From: an uncultured Peptostreptococcaceae bacterium
GTDB lineage: Bacteria > Bacillota > Clostridia > Peptostreptococcales > Peptostreptococcaceae
Assembly (NCBI GenBank): GCA_944383455.1
Contig: CALWPP010000004.1
Span: forward strand, 62,001-126,000
DNA: 64,000 nucleotides
Reading direction: 5' to 3'
Part shown: piece by piece, positions 47,194 through 49,153 of the stretch
Layout of the letters: each line of letters starts with the position of its first letter
How positions within the stretch are numbered: position 1 is the stretch's first letter
The notes under the pieces: generated by a model
The model's input: the letters and a program-made list of their open reading frames with translations, nothing else
What the model was told of the DNA's origin: nothing
Database searches by the model: none
Made by a program: the position numbers and the translations under genes

Positions 47194-47218
47194 AAAAAGA
47201 GGCTAAATGCCTCTTTTT
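47194..47218. terminator. Bidirectional terminator
   Basis: AAAAAGAGGC-TAAAT-GCCTCTTTTT between the Cys-rich gene and the convergent transporter gene. Confidence 0.85.
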
Positions 47219-48878
47219 AATTATATCCAATTGTAGTAGCTATAACAACAAATATAGATGCTAAAACAAATAACGAACCTAAAAATTTAACCTGAAACTT
47301 AGCCCAAATTTTCCAATCAAGCTTTGCTACACCAAGTATAGCCATCAAACAACCTGAAGTTGGAACTATTATATTTGTAAGTCCATCTCCTAATTGGAAT
47401 GCAAGAACAGAAACTTGTTTTGTTATTCCTATAAGTTCTGCAAGTGGTGCCATAAGTGGCATTGTAACAGCTGCTTGTCCAGAACCTGATACCACAAAGA
47501 AATTAAATATAGATTGGAAAACATACATAAACCATCCAGCAAGTGCAGTAGGTACACCTTGCAAAGATTCAGACATATTATGAAGTATTGTATTCATTAC
47601 AGTATATTCATAAGGCGATTGACCACCTAAGACAAGTATTATACCTTGTGCTAAACCTACTATCATAGCAGCACCAACTAATTCTTCAGATCCTTTTCTA
47701 AAAGATACTGCTATATCATTTATAGTCATATTATTTAATTTGAATAAAACACCAACTATACCAGATACAATTCCCATAGCAAAAAATATTCCTGCTATTT
47801 CTGGTATATAATATCCATATTCATTAACACCCCATATAATCCAAACTATACCAATTAATAATGTAAGTATTACTAAAAAATGACCAATATTAAATTTATT
47901 ATTTTCTATTTCTTCAGTATTAAAGTTTTGTCTATGATAATTATCACTTTCATAAGCTATCGATTTTGTTGGATCTTTTTTAATTTTTTTAGCATAAATC
48001 ATAGTATATAAAATACCAAAAGTTGTAAACACCAAAAACATTATTATCCTAAAATATGCTCCTGAAAGTATAGGAACACCTGCTATACTTTGGGCTACCG
48101 CAACGCTAAATGGATTCATCCAAGAAGTTGCAAATCCTATCTGAGCTGCAACTATTGTTATCATAAGACCAACTATAGAATCATACCCCATAGCAACCAT
48201 AATAGGAATTATAATCATAGAAAGAGGTATTACTTCTTCACTAAGTCCAAAAACAACTCCACCTATAGCAAATAAGAAAAATATAACTGGTATTAATAAA
48301 ACTTGAGCACTTTTTGATTTTTTCATCATAGAAAGAATACCAATTTCAATCGCTCCAGTTTTTAGTATTACACCAAAAGCACCACCTGATATTAATATAA
48401 ATGCAATTATACCAACAGCAGTACCCCATTTATCACCACTTACAAGACCTTCAAATGCGAAGTTGAAAAATCCAACGCCTCCTCCAGCCTCAAAAAGTGG
48501 AACTCCAGAAGTTTCACCTTTAGTAACATAATCACCATACTCTTGAGTTACTTTAAATTCTATTTCTTCCCCTTCTACGTATTCAAATGATTTAGCCTTA
48601 CTTTTATTAATTTCTGCTAAAGTTTCATCTTCTCTAAGAATTAAAGTAGTATTTTCATTACTCGCATCAACTGTAAATATTTCTCCTTCATGTTTAAAAG
48701 ACTTTACTTCTCCATCTTTTACAGTAGTTATAATTTCATTATTAAGTTTTTCTACAGAATATAAAACCTCAAATTTTCCAGTTGGAATAATATAAGTTAA
48801 AACTGATGCCAAAACTACAACCATAAAAATTATTACATATGTATCTGGCATTTGAAAGTTTCTTTTCTTATTTTGCAT
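47217..48878 (-). CDS. YfcC/AbgT-like secondary transporter under lysine riboswitch (putative lysine transporter)
   Basis: 553 residues. After the first helix (MPDTYVIIFMVVVLASVLTYIIPTG segment) there is an 80-residue outward Glu/Thr-rich insert, then about eleven helices. The IPTGKFE start and the internal repeats (GGAFGVILKTGAIEIGI; GLSEEVIPLSMIIIPIMVAMG) are those of the YfcC/DcuC family (PF03606), whose members are poorly characterised. A complete lysine riboswitch and terminator lie directly upstream, so lysine or a lysine-derived compound is the expected substrate (inference). Translation starts at ATG 48878 with GAAAGGAG. Confidence 0.85.
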   Translation of the reverse strand: MQNKKRNFQMPDTYVIIFMVVVLASVLTYIIPTGKFEVLYSVEKLNNEIITTVKDGEVKSFKHEGEIFTVDASNENTTLILREDETLAEINKSKAKSFEYVEGEEIEFKVTQEYGDYVTKGETSGVPLFEAGGGVGFFNFAFEGLVSGDKWGTAVGIIAFILISGGAFGVILKTGAIEIGILSMMKKSKSAQVLLIPVIFFLFAIGGVVFGLSEEVIPLSMIIIPIMVAMGYDSIVGLMITIVAAQIGFATSWMNPFSVAVAQSIAGVPILSGAYFRIIMFLVFTTFGILYTMIYAKKIKKDPTKSIAYESDNYHRQNFNTEEIENNKFNIGHFLVILTLLIGIVWIIWGVNEYGYYIPEIAGIFFAMGIVSGIVGVLFKLNNMTINDIAVSFRKGSEELVGAAMIVGLAQGIILVLGGQSPYEYTVMNTILHNMSESLQGVPTALAGWFMYVFQSIFNFFVVSGSGQAAVTMPLMAPLAELIGITKQVSVLAFQLGDGLTNIIVPTSGCLMAILGVAKLDWKIWAKFQVKFLGSLFVLASIFVVIATTIGYN

Positions 48879-48900
48879 AAATTTCTCCTTTCTAAAATAT

Positions 48901-48931
48901 AAAAAAAACCTAGGCTAAATCACCTAAGGTT
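48901..48931 (-). terminator. Riboswitch-controlled intrinsic terminator
   Basis: Minus-strand AACCTTAGG (923-931) pairs with CCTAGGTT (907-914) and is followed by eight T. It sits between the lysine aptamer and the ribosome site of the transporter gene. Confidence 0.85.
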
Positions 48932-48952
48932 ATATAAATCACATCCTTAAAT

Positions 48953-49115
48953 GATAGCACTCCACACATTTAAGTGTGACAATTGAGCAGATATTATCTA
49001 CACAACCAGAATATAGCCTTAAAGCAATCAGCTATAAACTTCGGCAATAATTCCTTTCTTAATAACACTATTTGCTTAAAATATTATTAATACTATTAAT
49101 TATTGCTCCTCTATC
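48953..49115 (-). ncRNA. Lysine riboswitch (L box) aptamer
   Basis: Read on the minus strand from 49115: GATAGAGGAGC, AGTA about 10 bases later, a GGAATTATTGCCGAAGT stretch, CTGG, TGTCAC, and the closing GTGGAGTGCTATC. The first GATAG pairs with the last CTATC to form P1. These are the conserved blocks of the lysine riboswitch in the same order as in the Bacillus lysC leader, and the length (about 163 bases) fits. Lysine binding would favour the terminator at 48901-48931 and switch off the YfcC transporter. Confidence 0.92.
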
Positions 49116-49124
49116 TTTAAAGTA

Positions 49125-49153
49125 ATTATATATTAACAATATAATTTTGTCAA
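49125..49153 (-). promoter_or_regulatory. Consensus SigA promoter for the lysine riboswitch transcript
   Basis: Perfect TTGACA (49148-49153), 17-base spacer and TATAAT (49125-49130) on the minus strand, ending 10 bases before the aptamer. Confidence 0.9.

Follow-up and report, generated by a model that had tools for sequence, protein, structure and literature searches.

A lysine riboswitch upstream of a solitary yfcC-type gene

The stretch of DNA analyzed here (64,000 nt in total, hereafter the window) carries on its minus strand a promoter, an RNA leader and a transporter gene, made up of the following elements.

47217-49153, minus strand: whole feature, from the promoter (49153) through the leader to the end of the yfcC-type gene (47217)
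49125-49153, minus strand: promoter, with -35 TTGACA (49153-49148), a 17-nt spacer and -10 TATAAT (49130-49125)
48947-49121, minus strand: complete five-helix lysine riboswitch (L-box) aptamer, from RF00168 and fold/duplex computation
48919-48955, minus strand: antiterminator, AUCAUUUAAGG (48955-48945) paired with CCUUAGGUGAU (48929-48919), 11 bp
48901-48931, minus strand: intrinsic terminator, stem AACCU.AGGU/GCCUAGGUU followed by U8, -9.4 kcal/mol
47217-48878, minus strand: yfcC-type transporter gene, 553 amino acids, DcuC/YfcC (TC 2.A.118-type), from PF03606 and PRK11588
47190-47216, minus strand: terminator-like hairpin GAGGC..GCCTC with a T run, directly after the stop codon, from the sequence

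The Rfam family Lysine (RF00168) matched positions 49121-48947 of the minus strand with 97.6 bits (E 1.2e-24, gathering score 30) over the complete model (1-182), which rules out a chance or false riboswitch; no other Rfam match was detected in the window. The earlier note had recognized a complete L-box aptamer here and had suggested an Infernal search of 48900-49130 (minus strand), with a missing match as the outcome that would speak against it; its range was right and the match was obtained. The promoter is a perfect sigma-70/SigA consensus (TTGACA-17-TATAAT), at which the transcription start is putatively placed (49153-49125). GAUAG (49115-49111) and CUAUC (48957-48953) form the strands of P1, L2 and L3 are complementary (AAGCAA/UUGCUU) and could make a kissing contact, and an RBS-like AGGAG lies upstream of the ATG at 48878. 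The promoter, P1 and intrinsic terminator described beforehand were thus all recovered in the sequence or its folds.

The 5' arm of the antiterminator shares bases with the 3' strand of P1, and the other arm with the 5' half of the terminator; P1, antiterminator and terminator are mutually exclusive. The minimum-free-energy fold of the antiterminator reached -12 kcal/mol without the 3' half of the terminator and -16.1 kcal/mol with it. As read from the sequence, this order of exclusions would be the one expected of a textbook OFF switch. At low lysine, the aptamer would be empty and the 3' strand of P1 would enter the 11-bp antiterminator; once this has formed, polymerase would read through and the transporter would be produced. 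At high lysine, P1 would be locked and the antiterminator blocked, so that the terminator would form and transcription would end before the gene. We infer both lysine binding by the leader and termination in the cell.

The encoded protein scored 402 bits against PF03606 (DcuC; gathering cut-off 23.1), placing it in the DcuC superfamily, and 667.9 bits against NCBIfam PRK11588 (YfcC, putative basic amino acid antiporter), above the curated equivalog cut-off of 500, in agreement with its previous description as a 553-residue YfcC/DcuC-type transporter. Since a hairpin follows directly after the stop codon, yfcC is apparently transcribed alone. An AlphaFold2 model of the protein (pLDDT 85.2) gave VIA Z-scores of 20-27 to ArsB, NaS1, YdaH and INDY over 360-444 residues, and its best Foldseek match was 4r0c (E 6e-8). 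The predicted fold is of the AbgT/INDY elevator type within the IT superfamily.

In this model, the segment linking helices 1 and 2 (residues 34-119) is predicted to fold into an outward beta domain with weak similarity to DUF1312/NusG domain II (Z about 5). The large loop that follows helix 1, previously regarded as unusual, is real (115 aligned residues) but is not peculiar to the window gene: it spans 64-132 residues across the clade of E. coli YfcC, and mostly 38-39 elsewhere. Its length is therefore not window-specific and does not track the riboswitch. Among the residue columns, only one (G125) separated lysine-led from arginine-led proteins, which is not meaningful.

Leaders of YfcC-type genes and their distribution on the protein tree

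Lysine riboswitches are present in 70 of the 71 genomes of the host family, in which YfcC-type genes are common. We collected about 110 such genes with their upstream DNA; all were checked for motifs, and representatives were scanned with Rfam. A lysine riboswitch was located directly upstream of 16, the evidence for part of these being the motif together with an adjacent RF00168 match. Six further genes (L009, L010, L011, L012, L013 and L015) are preceded by a T-box leader; these were detected by Rfam, and a simple regular expression caught none. We calibrated the specifier position on host leaders of pheS (GAA-g-TTC-a), ileS (GAA-a-ATC-a), thrS (GAA-a-ACT-a), metG (GAA-g-ATG-g) and valS (GAA-g-GTA-g). 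The aligned YfcC T-box leaders read GAA-a-AGA-g, with AGA as the specifier for arginine. L014 and L041, sisters of these genes, carry a lysine riboswitch instead. Our literature search, to which subscription journals were mostly closed, returned no paper tying arginine T-boxes to YfcC.

The nearest protein relatives of the window gene (46-62% identity) had no detectable Rfam leader, and a protein search of the genome contigs with the window protein returned only two relatives. In another genome, a lysine riboswitch precedes an ORF of about 479 amino acids which, by eye, is not a standard lysine-regulon gene (L166, G056:C1:254500-257200). Other genomic settings were also observed. On E. coli plasmids, related yfcC genes lie within arcA-arcC-argF-yfcC-argR. 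YfcC-family genes of E. faecium and K. pneumoniae (L154, 4761-6161, and L155, 4743-6161) belong to fructoselysine-type clusters that encode a SIS-domain protein, a sugar kinase of the fructoselysine-6-kinase type, an amidohydrolase and a GntR regulator.

In a protein tree of 61 rows with bootstrap and SH-aLRT support, with which a larger tree of 102 rows agrees, riboswitch-led yfcC genes occupy three separate places: a C. difficile-like clade, L014/L041, and the window gene. L014 and L041 are nested among the genes with arginine T-boxes (99/91). The window gene groups in a clade (100/100) with E. coli YfcC, clostridial relatives and one gene each from Fusobacterium and Photobacterium. The clade mates that were scanned showed no RNA leader, and the standing of the window gene as the lone riboswitch-led member of this clade is based on one genome. 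Mapping of leader states required 3 changes in the bootstrap trees (5-95% range 3-3), forced by well-supported branches. A single ancestral lysine riboswitch-yfcC unit that was inherited was thus rejected as the simplest reading. One gain followed by repeated losses is less likely, as the window aptamer resembles the leaders of NhaC-type genes rather than those of other yfcC genes. On this tree, the pairing in the window is read as having arisen independently of that in C. difficile, on another YfcC branch.

No other gene of the host family exceeded the equivalog cut-off for YfcC (PRK11588), and the window yfcC was therefore probably acquired from outside the host family. Joint transfer of riboswitch and gene was rejected, since no riboswitch precedes the gene in its closest relatives beyond the host family. 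The window aptamer is 71-75% identical to its closest NhaC-type leaders and 55-62% identical to other yfcC leaders, which suggests local recruitment; we lean towards a leader copied from an NhaC-type one, within a poorly resolved leader tree. A gene from outside the host family would then have been placed under a leader resembling the NhaC-type lysine-riboswitch leaders of that family.

More broadly, leaders may have been swapped repeatedly before YfcC genes, from an arginine T-box to a lysine riboswitch in one clade and by two further riboswitch gains, including that of the window gene, with each swap marking either a new substrate or a choice among substrates in the basic-amino-acid range. 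We offer this reading tentatively and would put it somewhat below even chances; if true, RNA leaders would give a direct readout of specificity throughout the uncharacterized YfcC family.

Lysine supply of the host and candidate substrates

The host genome contains two lysine riboswitches, each upstream of a transporter gene; the other one (L038, 5217-5391) precedes an NhaC-type antiporter gene (L038, 5422-7167; PF03553, 194 bits). No lysA (diaminopimelate decarboxylase) was found in the host assembly by profile or with the protein of a relative, nor is it present in the genus mate. The host assembly does contain two genes of the DHDPS/dapA family. As the assembly is 88.6% complete, lysA could sit in the missing part. 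With this combination, the host looks auxotrophic for lysine but possibly still able to produce diaminopimelate, and riboswitch-controlled lysine uptake makes sense. The riboswitch would then govern an essential uptake step and offer lysine analogues a point of attack. Elsewhere in the host genome, a T-box with an arginine specifier lies before the gene for an amino-acid ABC transporter binding protein (L138, G000:C1:39504-39711), and a second DcuC-family gene (G000:C6:67453-68694; PF03606, 298 bits) belongs to a distant clade and has no Rfam leader.

We consider it likely that the lysine riboswitch acts as a transcriptional OFF switch of a single-gene unit, and that this unit encodes an ArcE-like basic-amino-acid transporter of the YfcC type importing lysine into a cell probably unable to make it. 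In a family relative, pneumococcal ArcE (TC 2.A.118), arginine/ornithine exchange takes place at about 1 µM and affinity for lysine is high (PMC5300872). By analogy, transport would likely proceed by exchange, with lysine entering and another cationic amino acid leaving. The arginine T-boxes of close homologs and the lysine riboswitches are two different RNA sensors, and both point to cationic amino acids. A riboswitch reports what the cell senses and not what the protein carries, and we infer the substrate and the direction of transport. The lysine-sensing OFF control and the uptake role for lysine or a basic relative proposed in the earlier note are therefore supported by RF00168, the exclusive leader pairings, the recurrence of such leaders, the missing lysA and ArcE. 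Its view that few YfcC substrates are known stands in part, ArcE being the exception.

The substrate range may also be wider. A general exchanger of arginine, ornithine and lysine, with the riboswitch marking one of its uses, overlaps with lysine import and is a serious contender, although we would not expect it to prevail. The alternation of arginine T-boxes and lysine riboswitches inside one YfcC clade, the range of ArcE, which takes all three amino acids, and the yfcC genes in arc operons of E. coli plasmids are in line with it. Against this, the leader of the window gene is lysine-specific by its RNA family, and the host already has an arginine T-box before another transporter-related gene (L138).

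It is rather unlikely, but worth weighing, that the protein transports lysine in bound form (as beta-aspartyl-lysine or a different dipeptide, an N-acyl-lysine or a sugar-lysine adduct) and that this compound is split in the cell, the riboswitch reading lysine as end product. In the E. coli clade, three relatives directly precede a gene for beta-aspartyl-peptidase (iadA; L125, L128 and L129; TIGR01975, 497-521 bits) and two are directly followed by an M20 amidohydrolase gene (L123 and L126), so that the substrate of this clade may be a dipeptide or an acyl derivative. M20 amidohydrolases also lie downstream of lysine-riboswitch and arginine-T-box yfcC genes of the host family, and the fructoselysine-type clusters of E. 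faecium and K. pneumoniae fit the same idea. By contrast, the window gene stands alone, no beta-aspartyl-peptidase over the cut-off was found in the host assembly (best 32 bits), ArcE carries free arginine, ornithine and apparently lysine, and beta-aspartyl-peptidases are promiscuous (PMC10206079) and give no particular pointer to lysine or arginine. Given the pointers to cationic amino acids and a host assembly without this peptidase, free lysine is favored, and a lysine-yielding derivative is the main rival. In L125, L128 and L129, yfcC and the peptidase gene could be a dipeptide-use unit in their own right; apparent sigma-54-type activator genes lie upstream of yfcC in L125 and L127.

An ion/proton antiporter serving pH control at low lysine, an idea stated for NhaC among riboswitch-controlled genes (PMC11477304), is very improbable, since YfcC belongs to a DcuC/ArcE-type family with amino-acid exchange measured in one member and the operons and leaders of its relatives are those of amino-acid metabolism.

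Comparison with known systems

LysW/NhaC-type transporters share the riboswitch class and the expected regulatory logic with the window gene but differ in Pfam family (PF03553 compared to PF03606). Streptococcal ArcE/ArcD, assigned by literature naming to the basic amino acid antiporter family and likened to the window protein by this published placement, show the basic-amino-acid exchange and lysine affinity described above (PMC5300872). They serve arginine deiminase pathways, whereas the window gene stands outside any arginine deiminase cluster, and no lysine riboswitch upstream of ArcE/ArcD was reported in the literature examined. E. coli YfcC (L121; 43% identity), described as a putative transporter, falls in the same clade as the window protein, exceeds the same equivalog cut-off and has the extended loop after helix 1; unlike the window gene, it had no detectable RNA leader.

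The closest precedent is C. difficile CD3100-3099 (yfcC and an M20D amidohydrolase), which a 2024 review lists under a lysine riboswitch (PMC11477304); YfcC/DcuC is not mentioned in the lysine-riboswitch regulon papers PMC5584792 and PMC3766115. The link between lysine riboswitch and yfcC has thus been published before, in C. difficile; this makes the pairing less surprising and corrects the previous statement that transporters of these regulons come from other families. As in the window, a lysine riboswitch predicted to be an OFF switch precedes a YfcC-family gene in the CD3100 unit, to whose type L048-L055 presumably belong, judged by their matching lysine-riboswitch gene content. In contrast to that unit, the window protein lies in the E. 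coli YfcC clade (100/98 for the separation), shares about 36% identity with proteins that are likely of the CD3100 type and carries the long outward domain, and its gene is followed by neither an M20D partner nor any other gene in the same unit; identity between its aptamer and C. difficile-type yfcC aptamers amounts to only about 55%.

What is new compared to C. difficile is the different YfcC branch, the repeated recruitment of riboswitches and the exchange of arginine and lysine leaders. YfcC proteins are widespread and mostly without an assigned substrate, and the three associations with lysine sensors, together with the sister genes led by arginine tRNA sensors, predict lysine (or arginine) transport for the subclades named here, including that of E. 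coli YfcC.
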